From Bacteroidales bacterium (lineage in GTDB: Bacteria > Bacteroidota > Bacteroidia > Bacteroidales > UBA932), in contig JAFIHK010000048.1 of assembly GCA_017848635.1 (NCBI GenBank), positions 1-49,826 on the forward strand: a stretch of DNA of 49,826 nt. Reading direction: 5' to 3'. Made by a program: the position numbers and the translations under genes. The notes beneath the pieces are model-generated. The model was not told where the DNA came from. It did no database searches and worked only from the letters and a program-made list of their open reading frames with translations. Below are positions 533-10,645 of this stretch, in pieces; within the stretch, counting starts at the first letter, position 1; every line of letters begins with the position of its first letter.

Positions 533-1141
533 CTACTGATCGATAGGTACTGTTACGGTGTCGCCGCCCCTTATCACCGTTGCCTCTTTTGCCTGATTTC
601 TGGCAAGTGATATCTGCAGATCCTGAAACCTCTCTATCGGCTTTCCGTCAAAGTATAAAATTCTGTCTCCGTTTTTGAAGCCCAGCTCCCTCGACAGATC
701 GTTTGTCTGAATTCCGTAAACGGCATCGCTGTTGCGCAGATACTCTTCGCCCCAGGCATAAAGCACCGATGAGTAGATGAGAATAGCAAGGAGAAAGTTG
801 AAAAAGACACCTCCGAACATCACAAAAAAACGTTGCCAAGCCGGCTTGCTCCTGAACTCCCAAGGTTTAGGCTCGTTTTTAAGCATCTCTGTATCGAGAG
901 ACTCATCTATCATTCCCGATATTTTGCAGTAGCCTCCCAGCGGAAGCCAACCCATACCGTACTCGGTATCGCTGTTTTTTGGTTTGTATTTGAATAGGCT
1001 GAACCACGGGTCAAAGAAGAGATAGAACTTATCTACTCTGATCTTGAACAGTCGCGAAAAGAGAAAGTGACCGAGTTCATGAATAAGAATCAATATCGAT
1101 AGTGCAAAGAGCACCTGGAGTGTTTTGATTAAAATGTCCAT
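533..1141 (-). CDS. rseP: RseP-type intramembrane site-2 zinc protease, N-terminal part
   Basis: The product would be the M50 regulated-intramembrane protease that cleaves membrane-bound regulators such as anti-sigma factors. The N-terminal transmembrane helix carries the zinc-binding HELGH motif near residues 21-25, and a second hydrophobic segment and the first PDZ domain (ELGFKNGDRILYFDGKPIE) follow. The frame ends at an amber TAG (533-535) after 202 residues, whereas the family is usually about 430-450 residues, and the same frame continues as PDZ sequence to the contig joint. It lies 3 bases after dxr, a pairing common in Bacteroidetes and other bacteria. The stop is either a real nonsense mutation or an error. 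Confidence 0.85.
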   Translation of the reverse strand: MDILIKTLQVLFALSILILIHELGHFLFSRLFKIRVDKFYLFFDPWFSLFKYKPKNSDTEYGMGWLPLGGYCKISGMIDESLDTEMLKNEPKPWEFRSKPAWQRFFVMFGGVFFNFLLAILIYSSVLYAWGEEYLRNSDAVYGIQTNDLSRELGFKNGDRILYFDGKPIERFQDLQISLARNQAKEATVIRGGDTVTVPIDQ

Positions 1142-4618: not shown

Positions 4619-5962
4619 ATGGGAGCATTTCACGCATACGACATTCGCGGTATATATAATAAGGATTTTGATAAACATACAGCCTACAAAGTTGGGTTTT
4701 TCTTGCCTGAGTTACTTAAGACCGAAAAAGTACTTGTTGGAAGGGATGTTCGAACATCATCTCCAGAGATTTATGAGTGGCTTACTAAAGGGATCACCGA
4801 TGTCGGTGCAGATGTCTATTCACTTGGAATAGCGACAACACCAATGGTATACTTTGCAACAGGGCGTTACGGATTCAGAGCTTCTGTGCAAATCACCGCA
4901 TCGCACAATCCAAAAGAATATAACGGACTAAAGGTTTCAAGGGAGAATGCTCTTCCCGTGGGGCTCGATACCGGATTAGGTACAATTAAGGAGTGGATAG
5001 AGACGAGGGAGTGTGTACCTGCAACAAAAAGAGGTGTGATTCACAATCTCGATATTAAGAGGGAGTATATTGAATTCCTTCTGAGCTACAAAAGGGACTA
5101 CTCCTCTCTTAAGATGGGAATAGACCTCTCAAACGGAATGGCGGCACTTCTTATCAAGGATATTTTGGGAAATGATCCGCTTTATCTCTACGATGAACTC
5201 GATGGAACATTCCCAAACCATGAGGCAAATCCGTTGATCCCCGAAAATATTGTGGATCTCCAGAAACTAGTACGCAGCAACAAATGCGATATAGGTGTGA
5301 TATTCGACGGCGACGGCGACAGAGTGATGTTTACCGATGAGAATGGCCGCTTTATCTCTCCCGATTTAATTATTGCACTTATGGGATACTACTTTCTTGA
5401 GGAGAGAGGGGAGCGTGGTGCGGTTCTTCAGGATATCAGAAGCTCCAAAGCTGTAGGAGAGTTCCTTGCTCCTATGGGCGGGCAGATGCACACCTGGAAA
5501 GTTGGAAGAGCTTTTGCAGCTCACAAATTGAGAGAGATTAACGGGATTTACGGTGGAGAACTGGCCGGACACTACTACTTTAGAGACTTCTTCTACTCCG
5601 ATTCAGGTATTCTTGCTTCACTGATAGTACTTAATATTGTCTCATCAATGAAGGCGAAGGGGCGTAAACTATCTGAGCTCATTGCAGGAATAGAGAGATA
5701 CAAAAATTCCGGAGAGATTAACTATCGGATTGAGAAGAAGCGGGAGGCGATGGATAAGGTACGTGACTATTTTACAAAAACGGAGAGCCCTGTAGCTTCC
5801 TACGATTTTGATGGCTACAGAGTTGAATTCGCCGATTGGTGGTTTAATATAAGGCCTTCCAATACTGAGCCTTATCTCCGTTTCCTGGCTGAAGCAAAAG
5901 AGGAGACAATGCTTAAAAGCAAAATAGATAAGGTGAATGAACTTATTTCGGAATTTTTGTAG
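4619..5962 (+). CDS. manB: Phosphomannomutase/phosphoglucomutase (alpha-D-phosphohexomutase family)
   Basis: The enzyme interconverts hexose 1- and 6-phosphates, supplying GDP-mannose or other nucleotide sugars for envelope polysaccharides. The catalytic phosphoserine loop TASHNPKEYNGLK lies near residue 95, the metal-binding GDGDR loop near residue 231, the sugar-binding GGELAGHYYFRD segment near 320 and the phosphate-binding RPSNTEPYLR near 415. Length 447 fits the family. The substrate (mannose or glucose) cannot be decided from motifs, so the symbol is by common usage. The next gene begins within its last 26 bases, implying translational coupling. Confidence 0.9.
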   Translation: MGAFHAYDIRGIYNKDFDKHTAYKVGFFLPELLKTEKVLVGRDVRTSSPEIYEWLTKGITDVGADVYSLGIATTPMVYFATGRYGFRASVQITASHNPKEYNGLKVSRENALPVGLDTGLGTIKEWIETRECVPATKRGVIHNLDIKREYIEFLLSYKRDYSSLKMGIDLSNGMAALLIKDILGNDPLYLYDELDGTFPNHEANPLIPENIVDLQKLVRSNKCDIGVIFDGDGDRVMFTDENGRFISPDLIIALMGYYFLEERGERGAVLQDIRSSKAVGEFLAPMGGQMHTWKVGRAFAAHKLREINGIYGGELAGHYYFRDFFYSDSGILASLIVLNIVSSMKAKGRKLSELIAGIERYKNSGEINYRIEKKREAMDKVRDYFTKTESPVASYDFDGYRVEFADWWFNIRPSNTEPYLRFLAEAKEETMLKSKIDKVNELISEFL

Positions 5963-6971
5963 AGGTATAGCTATCTCAATACTTCTCATTGTTGCTACAT
6001 CTGAGTTGAGGGCCGGCGGTCGTGAGCTTATCAATCTTATTCCCGAATCCAGGGTCGTCATAGACTTCCCCGATCCGGGTAATGTTATCGGTGGAGCACC
6101 ATGGATGCTCATAATTTATGCACTGCCAAACGGAAACACCATCGAACATACCGCCGGCCGAAAAATTAAACCTGGAGACGACTGGCACTACGATATCCAG
6201 CACATATCTGCCCAGACTGAATTTATAAGACACTACAGTAAGAGATATAACTATGTTGTGGCATATCTGGAGTCGGGCACAAGAGCCTGGACATCCTACG
6301 CTGCAAAACATCAGGATTCTCCCGAACTATTTGTGTCACTGGTTGACACTCTCATCTCTATAACACGAAAAGAGATTTCCGGTGCGGTCAAAGGTAGGGA
6401 TCTGAGCATTGCACTGTGCAGCCACAGCGGAGGGGGCAGATTTGTATTCAACTACATTGCAGGGAGTGTGGCCAGGTACGGCTTAATTCCCAAACCGGTA
6501 AGGATCATATCATTTATAGACAGCAATTACGGATTCGAAGACTCTCTGCACACAAAACCACTGGTCAACTGGCTGAGGCAGCCGGGAGAGCGCCGTTTAA
6601 CGGTTATTTCATATATAGATTCAACAGTGGTGCTAAATGGGAAACATATCGTTAGCTCTACAGGGGGTACCGGCTATAGAAGTATGCTTATGAAAGAGTC
6701 ACTCGAGCGAGAGGGATTCCATTTTTCATCACATATAGACACAACATTCAAAAGATACCGAAGCTATGCTCCGCTTAAAGGGGCAAGAGGCTCCTCCATT
6801 GAAATTTTAATCAAGGAGAATCCAAATGGAAATATATACCATACAGTACTGGTAGAGAAGAATGGTTTTATTGAATCAATAATACCCCGAAGCAGAGCAC
6901 CGTTTGTTTTTTGGGGAGATAGAGCATACTCAGGATTCATTAATGATAAATTCGAAATTTCCCCGTTTTAA
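5937..6971 (+). CDS. Secreted alpha/beta-hydrolase-like protein of unknown function
   Basis: I do not recognise a named family. The 344-residue product starts with a signal peptide (hydrophobic ISILLIVATSELRA, cleavage near residue 27), so it is periplasmic or exported. SHSGGG at residues 162-167 resembles a nucleophile elbow with Ser164 as candidate nucleophile, preceded by a hydrophobic strand (LSIALC) as in alpha/beta hydrolases. The ATG at 5937 has AAGG 7-10 bases upstream and overlaps the phosphohexomutase gene by 26 bases. The gene for a DUF5009 membrane protein starts 17 bases later, so the two may work together. An esterase or deacylase role is only an inference from fold-like motifs. 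Confidence 0.7.
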   Translation: MNLFRNFCRGIAISILLIVATSELRAGGRELINLIPESRVVIDFPDPGNVIGGAPWMLIIYALPNGNTIEHTAGRKIKPGDDWHYDIQHISAQTEFIRHYSKRYNYVVAYLESGTRAWTSYAAKHQDSPELFVSLVDTLISITRKEISGAVKGRDLSIALCSHSGGGRFVFNYIAGSVARYGLIPKPVRIISFIDSNYGFEDSLHTKPLVNWLRQPGERRLTVISYIDSTVVLNGKHIVSSTGGTGYRSMLMKESLEREGFHFSSHIDTTFKRYRSYAPLKGARGSSIEILIKENPNGNIYHTVLVEKNGFIESIIPRSRAPFVFWGDRAYSGFINDKFEISPF

Positions 6972-6988
6972 TCAAATAAATATTGCCG

Positions 6989-8359
6989 ATGAAAAGATAT
7001 GAAGCTCTCGATTTCCTAAGAGGAATCTCAATTTTCGGAATGGTCTTCTGCTCAGTTATTCCCTATGGCGTACTTCCGGGATGGATGTACCATATTCAGA
7101 CTCCTCCACCGACACATGCCGTTGACCTTACGCTTGTGGGTCTGAGCTGGGTAGATCTTGTTTTCCCGGTTTTCATCTTCTGTATGGGTGTTGCCATATC
7201 TCTCTCCGGCCATAAAAAATTATCTGCAACGGGTAAGGATGATCACAAAGAGATAACAAAGAGCTATCTGCTCCACACATTTGAACGATTCCTGCTACTT
7301 TGGCTCTTCTCATATCTCTATGTAATGCTTAACTATGGCAACTTAGATTCTCCAGGAGCCTGGCTGCTTACTATTGCAGGTTTTCTATCCCTGTTCCCTA
7401 TATATATGATTGTCAAAAACAGCAGGTATCGAGTTTGGATAAGGGTGGCAGGCATGCTCCTATCCGCCGTGATAATATACTTCGGCCATACAATTTACGA
7501 AGAGGTAGTCTCTATTAATCGAAGCGGAATAATAATATTCCTTCTTGCTTTCCTCTACCTTTTCGCCTCTGTTATATGGTTCTATACCCGAAAAAATATC
7601 AGGATAAGAGCTGCTATTTTTGCAATTCTGATACTCTTCGCTGCAATTACGATGCACTACGAATTTGCTCAGAAACTATATAAAATAGAGTCTGTCAAAT
7701 GGTTTTTCAATATAGAGTATATCTATTTTCTAATGATACTCCTGCCTGCAACATGGTTGGGAGATATGCTTGTGAAGAGATTAGAAGATAAATCGCCAAT
7801 ATCAGTCTCCCCACAATTTGCTGCGATTTCGCTCTTTATGGTTGCGTGGCAGTGTTACGCGTTATATATGAGAATATTCTGGATAAACATAGCCGTCACA
7901 GTCGCTATGTTGGCTGCTATCTACTATTTTATAAAAAGGGGCTCATCTGGTTGGGCCGATCTCTTCTATGTCTCATCAGTAATGCTTTTGGCCGGATTGA
8001 TTATCGATCCTCTTGAGGGTGGAATACAGAAGAGCCCTTGCACAATCTCGTATTGTCTGGTAACTTTCAGCTGCGGAGTCTATCTGCTCTGGTTTTCGGC
8101 CTGGTTTTCAGCCAGATTCGGAAAATCAGCTATTTTCAAAATATTCACTGGTTCCGGAGGAAATCCTTTGATGAGTTATATTGCATACAACAGCTTTATG
8201 ATGCCTCTATTCAAACTTACCGGTTTTATATTCATTTACAAGACGGCCTTTCCTCAAAGCTATCCATGGATAGGGGTGGCATCGGCAGCTCTCTTTGTGT
8301 TGGTTATGATGTGGGGTGTTACTCTGCTAACTGACAGAAAGATAATCTGGAGAGCGTAG
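6989..8359 (+). CDS. DUF5009 / HGSNAT-like integral membrane acyltransferase homologue
   Basis: The protein has about 10-12 hydrophobic segments in 456 residues and opens with RYEALDFLRGISIFGMV, followed by GLSWVDLVFPVFIFCMGVA, the signature of the DUF5009/NagX group related to heparan-alpha-glucosaminide N-acetyltransferase. Members are thought to move acyl groups across the inner membrane onto amino sugars. I use the ATG at 6989; a TTG two codons earlier is also in frame. It follows the secreted hydrolase by 17 bases. A conserved Asp/His pair is expected in this family, but I cannot assign it with certainty here. The biochemical substrate is unknown. Confidence 0.8.
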   Translation: MKRYEALDFLRGISIFGMVFCSVIPYGVLPGWMYHIQTPPPTHAVDLTLVGLSWVDLVFPVFIFCMGVAISLSGHKKLSATGKDDHKEITKSYLLHTFERFLLLWLFSYLYVMLNYGNLDSPGAWLLTIAGFLSLFPIYMIVKNSRYRVWIRVAGMLLSAVIIYFGHTIYEEVVSINRSGIIIFLLAFLYLFASVIWFYTRKNIRIRAAIFAILILFAAITMHYEFAQKLYKIESVKWFFNIEYIYFLMILLPATWLGDMLVKRLEDKSPISVSPQFAAISLFMVAWQCYALYMRIFWINIAVTVAMLAAIYYFIKRGSSGWADLFYVSSVMLLAGLIIDPLEGGIQKSPCTISYCLVTFSCGVYLLWFSAWFSARFGKSAIFKIFTGSGGNPLMSYIAYNSFMMPLFKLTGFIFIYKTAFPQSYPWIGVASAALFVLVMMWGVTLLTDRKIIWRA

Positions 8360-8387: not shown

Positions 8388-8416
8388 TGTAACAATTTTA
8401 CCGGTACTTCGTCTTA
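8388..8416 (+). promoter_or_regulatory. ECF-sigma-type promoter in front of the sigma factor gene
   Basis: TGTAACAA at 8388-8395 and CGTCTTA at 8410-8416 are separated by about 15 bases. AAC-type -35 and CGTC-type -10 elements are the hallmark of ECF sigma promoters, which often drive their own sigma gene. No TAnnTTTG box is present in this gap. The predicted transcription start falls just before the ATG at 8424, so the mRNA would have almost no leader. Autoregulation is inferred. Confidence 0.65.
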
Positions 8417-8423
8417 TGGTTGA

Positions 8424-8909
8424 ATGACAACTAAAGAGTTTAACATAACAGTTGAAAAGCTTCGTCCCAAGCTGATGCACTTTGCCGCAGGCTTTGTGCG
8501 GACAGGTGCACACACAGCGGAGGATCTTGTTCAGGATGCTATTATAAAACTCTGGAAGAGTCAGGATTTGTACCAGATACGAAATACCGAGGCGCTTACT
8601 ATGCATATTCTTAGAAATGTATGCCTCGATTACCTTAAGATAAAGAAGAATATAAGTGAGGAGCTCCCTTCAAATCTTAGGTTACTAAATGACACCGATC
8701 CTCTCTCTATGGTAGAACAGAAGGAGAGAGTATCAAGAGTAAGGGAGATGATTTCGGCTCTTCCTCCCGATCAGATGCTGGCTTTGAGGCTGAGGGATAT
8801 AATGGGATATGAGATGAGTGAAATTGCCGAAATAATTGGTACAACCGAGGGGAATGTCCGCACCCTGCTTTCAAGAGCGAGACAAAAACTTAGAGAGTCG
8901 TTAGTATGA
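8424..8909 (+). CDS. ECF-family RNA polymerase sigma factor (sigma-70 group 4)
   Basis: A 161-residue sigma factor with only regions 2 and 4, as in extracytoplasmic-function sigmas. Region 2 contains TAEDLVQDAIIKLWK and the promoter-melting NTEALTMHILRNVCLDYLK; region 4 contains LPPDQMLALRLRDIMGYEM and the helix-turn-helix EIAEIIGTTEGNVRTLLSRA, ending in RQKLRESL. The stop overlaps the next start as ATGA at 8906-8909. The downstream membrane protein is the likely anti-sigma factor, and the ECF-type promoter immediately upstream suggests that the gene feeds its own expression. The inducing signal is unknown; envelope stress is a reasonable guess. Confidence 0.93.
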   Translation: MTTKEFNITVEKLRPKLMHFAAGFVRTGAHTAEDLVQDAIIKLWKSQDLYQIRNTEALTMHILRNVCLDYLKIKKNISEELPSNLRLLNDTDPLSMVEQKERVSRVREMISALPPDQMLALRLRDIMGYEMSEIAEIIGTTEGNVRTLLSRARQKLRESLV

Positions 8910-9391
8910 AAAAATTGGATGATAAAAGAGCAAAAGAGTTACTTGAACTCTATTTTGAAGGGGGAACAACCCTTGAACAGGAGAGTGAGCTTAGAGCCTA
9001 TTTTGCTTCCGGAAGAGCAGATAAGGACCTGGAGAGGTATGCGCCGATATTCGGATACTTTAACGATGAGATCAACAAAATTAAGAGAGCTGAATCCCGG
9101 AGATACTGGGTGAAACCAAGATTCCTCTATTCAGTGCCGGCAGCTGCAGCTATTGCTCTCTTTACAGTACTATTCTGGCCGCAAGATGAGAAGCAGACCG
9201 GTCTGCGTCTCGTCCTCGACGGTCTCGAGATAAATAATGATGTGGCAGCGCTGTCGATGGCCGACGACAGACTCGCCAAGATGAGTGAAATGATGGAGAG
9301 AGTGGATACCAAAACAGAGCCCCTAGAACAGCTCAATAAGGTAGAGAAGGCTATCTCCGGATTCAATGAAATTACAAGCAAAATTAAATAG
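8906..9391 (+). CDS. Probable anti-sigma factor, single-pass membrane protein
   Basis: A 161-residue protein with a cytoplasmic N-terminal half (LLELYFEGGTTLEQESELR, resembling the helical start of Bacteroidetes anti-sigma proteins), one membrane helix near residues 75-92 (FLYSVPAAAAIALFTVLFW) and a periplasmic tail with heptad-like helical sequence. It has no zinc-binding HxxxCxxC motif, so it is not a classical ZAS protein. Position supplies the main argument: its ATG overlaps the stop of the ECF sigma gene and the DUF4252 gene begins 2 bases after its stop. No enzymatic motif is visible. Confidence 0.7.
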   Translation: MKKLDDKRAKELLELYFEGGTTLEQESELRAYFASGRADKDLERYAPIFGYFNDEINKIKRAESRRYWVKPRFLYSVPAAAAIALFTVLFWPQDEKQTGLRLVLDGLEINNDVAALSMADDRLAKMSEMMERVDTKTEPLEQLNKVEKAISGFNEITSKIK

Positions 9392-9393
9392 AA

Positions 9394-9885
9394 ATGAAAA
9401 AGATAGCATTATTAACCCTAACGCTTATTTGCCTCCCGATTGCGCTATCTGCACAATCCAGAGAGATAAACGAAATATTTGACAGGTTCGAAAAGAAGAA
9501 GAGTGTTGAGTCGATAACAATTTCGCCATCTCTGCTCAGTATGACAAGCTCTAAAGGTAGCAACGAAACAGCTGAATTGTTATCGAAGATATCAAATATG
9601 AGAATATTGAATGTTCCACTACGCACAACAGAGAACGGGCAGCCTGTTTCGAAACAGCTGAAATACGAACTGGACAAGATTATTAAAATATATCAGTTCC
9701 AGAGAGCAGTTAAGGTAGAGGAGGAGAGTAGCTCGTTTGAACTATATATGATAAACGGAAACAAAGGAGCAGTCCTCTTTCTCTCAAGCGACAACTCCGA
9801 TTTTACATCAATAGCAATTTTTGGAGAGATCGACAAGACAATTGTAAACTCATTACTTAACGGAAACATTAAAGTGAAAAAATAG
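9394..9885 (+). CDS. DUF4252-family exported protein
   Basis: A 163-residue protein with a clear signal peptide (KKIALLTLTLICLPIALSAQ) and the compact alpha/beta pattern of DUF4252, a Bacteroidetes family of unknown function that often sits beside ECF sigma genes. The mature part holds EIFDRFEKKKSVESITIS near its start and a C-terminal strand-rich segment (GAVLFLSSDNSDFTSIAIFG). No lipobox or catalytic motif is seen. It lies between the probable anti-sigma gene and a beta-barrel gene with gaps of 2 and 1 bases, so it belongs to the same transcript and is probably part of the response the sigma factor controls. Confidence 0.75.
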   Translation: MKKIALLTLTLICLPIALSAQSREINEIFDRFEKKKSVESITISPSLLSMTSSKGSNETAELLSKISNMRILNVPLRTTENGQPVSKQLKYELDKIIKIYQFQRAVKVEEESSSFELYMINGNKGAVLFLSSDNSDFTSIAIFGEIDKTIVNSLLNGNIKVKK

Positions 9886-9886
9886 T

Positions 9887-10645
9887 ATGAAAAAAATCTT
9901 TTTGGGAGTATCAATGATGCTCGCCGCAATATCAGCAAATTCACAGACTTTTGTAAAAATAGGGGAGTTGGAGTTAGCTCTAAAGTCACCAATCTCAATC
10001 ACTAAGGAGAAGGACACTGTTAAAGAGTATAACTACGGCAAACATAAAAAAGGATACCGCACATATTTTGACGAGTTCTACATTGGTTATGGGCAGGTTA
10101 TGAACACATCTGAAGAGACATATATGCCTGTTTACTTTGGTAACTCATATAATCTCGAAATCGGCTGGAAATATTTTCACCGTCCTGCAAAATTCTATGC
10201 CATAGGAACATCGTTCCGTTACACATCAAACTCTTTCAGGCTAACACCTGAAGCAGTAGAGCAGTCAGGCGGATTCTTCCCCGAGGCAGATGGCGAACCT
10301 TACCGTCAGTTTTTCAGAACCGATAATTTAGGTACCAGCCTGATAAACAGAGTGTATTTATATTCCGGAAGAAGTGCCAGACCTGTATTCCTTGAATTCG
10401 GAGCATATGCCGACTACGCATTCAGCAAAAGATATAAAGTAAAGAGTCGCATCGATGGCGATAAGGTTAAGAGCAAATACCGCGATGGTTCCAAGTTCAA
10501 TCCGGTTGAGGCTGGTCTTAATGGCGGAATCGGATACAAAGACATTATGATCTTTGCGAAGTATAGAATGACAAATTATTTCAATAAAGATTACTCAATG
10601 AATGAATTGCCAAGATGGTCTGTAGGAGTTCAATTCAATCTCTAA
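9887..10645 (+). CDS. Putative outer-membrane beta-barrel protein
   Basis: The 252-residue product has a signal peptide (FLGVSMMLAAISANSQ), alternating hydrophobic/aromatic strands throughout, and a C-terminus PRWSVGVQFNL in the pattern of a terminal outer-membrane strand. I do not recognise a named family. Strand patterns suggest about 8-10 strands, possibly with a short extracellular charged loop rich in Lys and Asp near residues 185-205. It closes the ECF sigma cassette and is convergent with rimM, with only 28 bases between the stops and no obvious terminator hairpin. A role as the envelope target or sensor of the cassette is inferred from position. Confidence 0.65.
   Translation: MKKIFLGVSMMLAAISANSQTFVKIGELELALKSPISITKEKDTVKEYNYGKHKKGYRTYFDEFYIGYGQVMNTSEETYMPVYFGNSYNLEIGWKYFHRPAKFYAIGTSFRYTSNSFRLTPEAVEQSGGFFPEADGEPYRQFFRTDNLGTSLINRVYLYSGRSARPVFLEFGAYADYAFSKRYKVKSRIDGDKVKSKYRDGSKFNPVEAGLNGGIGYKDIMIFAKYRMTNYFNKDYSMNELPRWSVGVQFNL

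Follow-up and report, generated by a model that had tools for sequence, protein, structure and literature searches.

The locus described here raises the question of whether an extracytoplasmic function (ECF) sigma factor drives its own synthesis, and of what the proteins encoded with it contribute. It is a cassette of four genes, for the sigma factor, a probable anti-sigma factor, a DUF4252 protein and an outer-membrane β-barrel protein, in a 49,826-nucleotide stretch of Bacteroidales bacterium DNA (assembly GCA_017848635.1, contig JAFIHK010000048.1; the whole stretch is hereafter called the window). The window is carried by contig C153 of a 1.97 Mb genome that is in 172 contigs and 85% complete. 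The sigma factor exceeds the cut-off of NF058625 ('sigma_PG0214 / GFO_1088 family ECF-type sigma factor'), an equivalog model, and because it passes this curated cut-off and is accompanied by a DUF4252 partner we assign the cassette to the PG_0214-type operons. The operon family to which it belongs is known, though functionally unexplored, and the window version has four genes, one of them for a barrel. The type is neither isolated nor new, NCBIfam models existing for the sigma factor and for the DUF4252 partners; what this analysis adds is the promoter rule and the way it shifts with gene order, the probably near-leaderless start of the sigma gene, and a tie between DUF4252 and the anti-sigma tail. 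Comparison across genomes strongly supports self-transcription of the cassette by its predicted sigma factor.

Promoter and gene order

Related loci were collected in two sets: 120 picked by hand, not at random, from longer lists, and 80 named loci on GTDB contigs, from which 12 duplicates were removed to leave 68 held-out loci. The named set includes Parabacteroides, Bacteroides graminisolvens, Tannerella, Paludibacter, Draconibacterium and Flavobacterium, and the four-gene version was seen in B. graminisolvens and a Parabacteroides. Of 295 genomes in the order, 130 have a match to NF058625 above its cut-off; the window sigma factor is the sole such place among the matches listed for its genome.

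A preliminary description of the window had proposed an ECF-type promoter directly before the sigma gene, with a 15-base gap. The promoter was borne out as a family feature far beyond chance, and the gap was corrected: with the boxes as quoted (TGTAACAA and CGTCTTA), the spacer is 14 bases. The exact promoter string occurs once in the genome and its reversed control not at all. A two-box model fitted to the 120 upstreams of related sigma genes reads TGTAAY, 16 bases, CGTC(T/A)T, with almost fixed spacing; upstreams shorter than 80 bases were excluded from the promoter counts. The expression TGTAAC.{15,19}CGTC, which covers the TGTAAC form only, was present before 18 of the 120 sigma genes, and was found in none of the reversed or reverse-complemented upstreams and in none of 121 downstream coding stretches. 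Scored with a position matrix, 83/120 upstreams exceeded 9, compared with 0/240 dinucleotide shuffles and 0/120 coding stretches, and at the same threshold the held-out loci gave 53/68 upstreams against 0/68 coding stretches.

The strongest test was a natural experiment in gene order. Loci were called sigma-first when no DUF4252 gene lies just before the sigma gene (155 loci) and DUF4252-first otherwise (33 loci). TGTAAY-N16-CGTC precedes the sigma gene in 136 of the 155 sigma-first loci, and stands directly before it in none of the 33 DUF4252-first loci. The promoter instead precedes the leading DUF4252 gene in 9 of the 19 DUF4252-first loci with enough sequence, and in six of seven close relatives, which partly overlap those 19. 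In a related control with 28 testable sigma loci, the promoter lay directly before the sigma gene in 7/14 loci with DUF4252, DUF4252-first ones included, and in 2/14 without. By these comparisons the predicted promoter tracks the first gene of the operon, whichever gene leads.

Its position also bears on translation of the sigma mRNA. The CGTC box ends 10 nucleotides (nt) before the ATG of the window sigma gene, a start codon backed by the conserved N-terminus; in the 136 loci with a promoter before sigma the median CGTC-to-ATG distance is 11 nt, with 90 loci at ≤12 nt, and in the nine DUF4252-first loci the box lies 18-83 nt before the ATG. With the spacing that commonly separates an ECF −10 box from the transcription start site, the sigma mRNA is probably leaderless or nearly so in sigma-first operons. 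Leaders below 10 nt are reported for ~3.7% of cases in B. thetaiotaomicron, where the median is 32 (PMC7366714), and leaderless mRNAs for 5.5% in F. psychrophilum (PMC9723704). In the portions of the literature consulted on leaderless transcripts, ECF sigma factors and Bacteroidetes, we met no finding of this kind. At another locus (L311; genome G010, C1:1434959-1434986) a second and different ECF sigma gene has a similar promoter ~11 nt ahead of its start, and near-leaderless starts may therefore extend beyond the NF058625 family.

The four open reading frames (ORFs), all on the + strand, were placed as the preliminary description had them, with junctions of -4, +2 and +1 (Table 1). The gene 3' of the barrel gene is convergent. 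A scan for sigma-70 type promoters gave nothing above chance, and no terminator was found 3' of the barrel gene.

Table 1. Features of the cassette, in window positions
Feature	Position	Strand	Remarks
Auto-promoter	8388-8416	+	TGTAAC(AA) 8388-8395, 14-base spacer, CGTCTTA 8410-8416; motif recurs in the family
ECF sigma factor, 161 aa	8424-8909	+	NF058625, 147.1 bits against a cut-off of 130; sigma regions 2 and 4 matched in Pfam
Probable anti-sigma factor, 161 aa	8906-9391	+	N-terminal helices, single membrane helix, short periplasmic helical tail
DUF4252 protein, 163 aa	9394-9885	+	PF14060; exported, with a signal peptide recognized by eye and a predicted alpha/beta fold
Exported outer-membrane beta-barrel protein, 252 aa, OMP_b-brl_2-like	9887-10645	+	Profile comparison with other cassette barrels

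The anti-sigma candidate and its DUF4252 neighbor

The second gene overlaps the sigma gene in 100 of 119 loci. In the window its predicted product has a helical N-terminal domain (residues 6-66), a membrane helix (~73-91) and a periplasmic helical tail (112-160), and a single strong hydrophobic helix near residue 84 is present in 113/117 complete second proteins. The preliminary description had remarked on the lack of a zinc motif. The window protein does lack it, having neither Cys nor His, and there is nothing peculiar in this: Hx3Cx2C is found in 0/117 second proteins, so that its absence is the family norm, and loss of the motif as a special feature was rejected. In class I anti-sigma factors generally the motif is described as optional, being absent in ~44% (PMC7406223).

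A predicted structure (pLDDT 84, pTM 0.46) shows three helices followed by the membrane helix, then a small hairpin and a tail of two helices. Foldseek returned 24 weak hits, two of which are the cytoplasmic anti-sigma domains of RsiW (5wuq) and MucA (8z6g), with VIA Z values of 2.6 to 3.0; a sequence search of the PDB gave nothing usable. Among the 114 of 117 candidates that were aligned (A3; L069, L070 and L071 were left out as too divergent by eye), matches at E ≤ 0.1 include 20 to the NCBIfam 'anti-sigma factor' and 12 to 'putative anti-sigmaE protein', and in Pfam seven match DUF3379 and four zf-HC2. A coupling analysis of 182 sigma/second-gene pairs placed sigma residue 125 with anti-sigma residue 16 at the top, as a published interface would predict, but showed no enrichment for the N-terminal domain and was set aside. 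PG_0215, the second gene of the P. gingivalis operon, is named a putative anti-sigma factor (PMC10101095). The second gene very probably encodes a zinc-free, single-helix anti-sigma factor. In a survey, only 6% of Bacteroidetes ECF genes had a class I anti-sigma domain beside them (PMC7406223), so that such surveys may miss this second-gene family.

The third protein matches DUF4252 (PF14060) with 50.3 bits against a cut-off of 23.9 (E 3.3e-13). It scores 42.3 bits against a cut-off of 150 for NF058626 (GFO_1090 family), and is accordingly called a DUF4252 protein and not an equivalog; it also matches the GFO_1091 model, far below the cut-off. The AF2 model (pLDDT 89, pTM 0.80) comes nearest in fold to DcrB, EagT6 and SciW (Foldseek E 4.6e-3, VIA Z about 6), and we draw no function from the fold because a Z of ~6 is, by the tool's own account, a common level. 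A sequence search of the PDB gave no relative, a single match at E 0.043 being dismissed.

Counting the first set together with the window, 113 loci have a complete third ORF, which in 100 of them is DUF4252, and 22 of 55 complete fourth ORFs of ≥130 aa are DUF4252 again, nine others matching OMP_b-brl_2. In 24 relatives, ten genomes carry DUF4252 and all ten also have a cassette-type sigma gene; 18 of their 20 DUF4252 genes lie within ~3 kb of one, and DUF4252 often occurs on both sides of sigma. By this neighborhood evidence, DUF4252 belongs to the cassette unit.

Three weak lines would join DUF4252 to the periplasmic tail of the anti-sigma factor. The tail motif and DUF4252 are associated: 155 loci have both, four neither, 18 DUF4252 only and one the motif only (Fisher p 8e-4, with relatedness not modelled and loci with <900 bases after the second gene excluded; reassigning L145 to DUF4252 by hand, on a Pfam match, moved p from 1e-4 to 8e-4). 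The tail motif is kept in some DUF4252-first relatives whose N-terminal domain is unrecognized by the profile (L010, L013, L015, L016 and L019). Finally, a candidate fusion (L092 4019-4897, minus strand, genome G166) encodes a 292-aa protein with an anti-sigma domain and a C-terminal DUF4252-like domain (profile E 2.4e-4), with no signal peptide between the halves and no separate DUF4252 gene called after it. This indirect evidence favors DUF4252 as a partner of the anti-sigma factor. In the literature as far as it was accessible, mentions of DUF4252 were confined to labels in expression tables and a single line of discussion, with none in a title or abstract. At two loci, L172 and L145, the DUF4252 proteins are long (424 and 306 aa) and have extended, mutually similar C-terminal regions.

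The barrel and the extent of the regulon

The fourth protein had been described as an unrecognized barrel. It indeed has no Pfam match of its own, OMP_b-brl_2 included, and a PDB sequence search gave nothing usable, but comparison by group places it as OMP_b-brl_2-like: in profile comparison, the window barrel and three relatives (A5) match a group of 13 barrels from cassettes of other families (A6) across 188 columns (E 4.3e-18), and OMP_b-brl_2 (PF13568) is matched by eight of those 13 distant barrels and two of the four in the window barrel's own group. With profiles of both groups, a barrel was found in 43/201 loci, about a fifth, a count that includes duplicates between the locus sets. 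The co-occurrence of the four genes, a check suggested at the outset, extends to DUF4252 as third gene in most loci and to the barrel in a minority; since 43 of 201 loci carry it, the predicted barrel is a recurrent, lineage-dependent extra part. A fusion of DUF4252 with a barrel was sought and none was found.

A genome-wide search for the same promoter, which had been suggested as a way to define the regulon, found the exact string to be unique and gave one further intergenic candidate. TGTAAYN16CGTC has four sites in the window genome, compared with three for the reversed pattern; two are inside long open frames, one is the cassette, and one is intergenic (C8:1385-1412), 36 nt before a gene for a 419-aa secreted protein that has no Pfam match. 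Homologues of this protein are present in six of 38 other genomes, none with such a promoter, so that it is a mere candidate target. A scan allowing two mismatches gave 34 matches against 53 in the control and was rejected as noise. Across 18 genomes, TGTAACN16CGTCWT has 42 sites against 15 controls, 15 of the 42 being cassettes; among the extra sites with flanking sequence, some precede another ECF sigma gene or genes for small secreted proteins, and others are intragenic or have no nearby ORF. At L310 and L309 (G044 C7 and G157 C35), in two genomes of one family, similar-looking small secreted proteins lie behind a matching promoter, and these are possibly a shared regulon member. No common regulon was established from the scans of the window genome and the 18 genomes; those of the 18 genomes suggest small regulons that are lineage specific.

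Published expression data concern related operons. In P. gingivalis lacking PG_0686, PG_0214 to PG_0218 rose 2.4- to 3-fold anaerobically and 5.3- to 10.6-fold under peroxide, and hmu genes also rose (PMC10101095); PG_0985 to PG_0987 (sigma, hypothetical, DUF4252) change jointly with iron (PMC10434189). In P. bivia, one sigma gene, one hypothetical gene and three DUF4252 genes with neighboring locus numbers fall together (PMC11410844). SigCH is reported as a direct regulator of cdhR and hmuYR (PMC5607195). No heme gene control of the SigCH type was seen beside the sites examined in the window genome, which is incomplete.

A proposed circuit and its alternatives

We consider it likely that the four genes form one PG_0214/GFO_1088-type unit that amplifies itself through its own promoter, is shut off by its anti-sigma factor, and has DUF4252 acting at the anti-sigma tail. 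The sigma factor would be held at the inner membrane by the product of the overlapping second gene until some envelope disturbance frees it; it would then transcribe its own operon from 8388-8416, raising sigma, anti-sigma, DUF4252 and barrel together, so that the response amplifies itself and the anti-sigma factor made from the same mRNA shuts it off. The place of DUF4252 would be the periplasm, where it most likely pairs with the anti-sigma tail as either sensor or brake, in an RseB-like role without kinship to RseB. The barrel may be an outer-membrane output or an outer sensor, added in some lineages. Of the self-reinforcing envelope response put forward in the preliminary description, the self-reinforcement is backed by comparative genomics; the envelope part is plausible, because the anti-sigma factor is predicted to be a membrane protein, DUF4252 and the barrel to be exported, and an orthologous operon is co-induced by peroxide.

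Several observations weigh against this reading. At a score of 9, 19 of the 155 sigma-first loci lack the promoter, and of the 188 loci 120, the window included, supplied the upstreams to which the matrix was fitted, so that independent evidence comes from the 68 held-out loci and the DUF4252-first upstreams alone. The window's second protein matches no anti-sigma model in Pfam or NCBIfam and has weak fold matches at best (Foldseek E above 1), and the top 40 pairs of the coupling analysis include 15 in the N-terminal domain, where ~18 are expected. The association of tail motif and DUF4252 reduces to about three independent losses, and the fusion occurs in one genome and not in its three family members, with Pfam silent on the DUF4252 half.

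Among the alternatives, a serious one, somewhat short of an even chance, is that DUF4252 and the barrel are pure outputs, serving envelope maintenance or uptake with no part in sensing. Both lie downstream in most loci, the presence of the barrel differs by lineage, and the DcrB/Eag-like fold hint would suit a maintenance or chaperone role for DUF4252. Outputs of ECF regulons are usually lineage-variable, however, yet DUF4252 is nearly constant, it often flanks sigma on both sides, and loci lacking DUF4252 tend to lack the anti-sigma tail motif as well. That the operon is mainly a regulator of heme or iron acquisition like P. gingivalis SigCH, with no general envelope response, seems unlikely. 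The joint rise of PG_0214-0218 and hmu genes and the iron dependence of PG_0985-0987 speak for it; but the window genome offers only one further intergenic site, before the 419-aa secreted protein, with no heme gene beside the sites examined, and regulons appear small and lineage specific.

It is more doubtful still that the second gene encodes a membrane co-activator or an unrelated protein, the sigma factor being governed by its level alone through the auto-promoter. The missing model match in the window and the low survey figure for class I domains would fit such an arrangement; the overlapping start, the one membrane helix, the helical N-terminal domain, the several anti-sigma models matched by relatives, and the presence of RsiW and MucA among the Foldseek hits argue the other way. 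A chance promoter string, with the operon read from upstream genes, is barely credible: the upstream gene (6983-8359) is indeed co-directional and ends 64 bases before sigma, but the promoter follows gene order (136/155 against 0/33) and recurs in held-out loci and not in their controls. Extending the circuit proposed here, the anti-sigma tail, DUF4252 (as a distinct class of regulator that senses outer-membrane state) and a separate barrel could form a split trans-envelope relay that does the work of the one-piece Dma/Reo anti-sigma factors, with the near-leaderless sigma start, confined to sigma-first operons, as a second control that parts sigma from anti-sigma translation; we regard this extension as speculative and give it only a small chance.

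Known systems offer partial parallels. In RpoE-RseA-RseB, the genes for the sigma factor, a membrane anti-sigma factor and a periplasmic protein stand in this order and are auto-regulated, like the cassette; the third gene in the window is DUF4252 and by sequence not RseB. GFO_1088-GFO_1091, which we take to be from Gramella forsetii, share in kind the sigma family (NF058625) and DUF4252-type partners (NF058626 and NF058619) with the window, but there two such partners are modelled, and the window protein falls well below the GFO_1090 cut-off. PG_0214-PG_0218 of Porphyromonas gingivalis is a co-regulated operon with the same sigma equivalog, a putative anti-sigma factor, DUF4252 and then exported proteins. 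PG_0214 appears to be PGN_0319, that is SigCH, judging from the equation of PGN_0320 with PG0215 (PMC4222909). PG_0217 and PG_0218 are described as mutually homologous hypothetical proteins (PMC1887533), whereas a single DUF4252 and a single barrel are encoded in the window cassette. EcfO-Reo and Das-Dma (ECF21) of Bacteroides likewise set an ECF sigma factor beside a membrane anti-sigma factor and involve an outer-membrane barrel; in Dma, however, the barrel is the anti-sigma factor's own C-terminal part (PMC13088901), whereas the window anti-sigma factor is 161 aa long with two end helices and the barrel is a separate gene. CirY-CirZ-Spy of Phocaeicola vulgatus is also a sigma/anti-sigma pair co-transcribed with a periplasmic protein, which there is the Spy chaperone (PMC13114119) and here DUF4252. 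Unlike FecI-FecR signalling systems, the cassette has no FecR domain match in its second gene and no TonB-dependent receptor domain match in the 252-aa barrel.

The preliminary description had also noted a stop codon in rseP, as relevant if RseP releases the sigma factor. The rseP frame (533-1141, minus strand) does end in an in-frame TAG (533-535) after residue 202, beyond which the reading continues in frame until it is lost at ~207. The start of the window is a chimeric contig end: contig C107 overlaps positions 207-253 at 97.9% and continues the RseP frame, and 1-206 is a misjoined piece that reads as part of a LuxR-type domain (GerE, 2.1e-11). The TAG lies outside the C107 overlap and ~330 bases from the junction, where a real mutation and an assembly error are indistinguishable; being near a chimeric contig end, it is unusable, and its relevance to sigma release was rejected as unsafe. 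Elsewhere in the window, at 23.7-25.5 kb, a BlaI-type repressor gene (Penicillinase_R, 2.6e-27) is followed by one for a 475-aa M56 peptidase with a TonB Plug-like stretch at residues 404-466, and a 344-aa ORF without a Pfam match (5937-6971) lies between phosphomannomutase and DUF5009 genes.

For the family as a whole, the promoter motif is a handle for finding regulons, and the dependence of the leader on gene order offers an inexpensive way to ask whether selection favors near-leaderless sigma mRNAs. Ties of DUF4252 to a single sigma family, to the promoter of that family and to the tail of the anti-sigma factor would make this domain a testable regulator for much of the Bacteroidota, gut and oral genera included.

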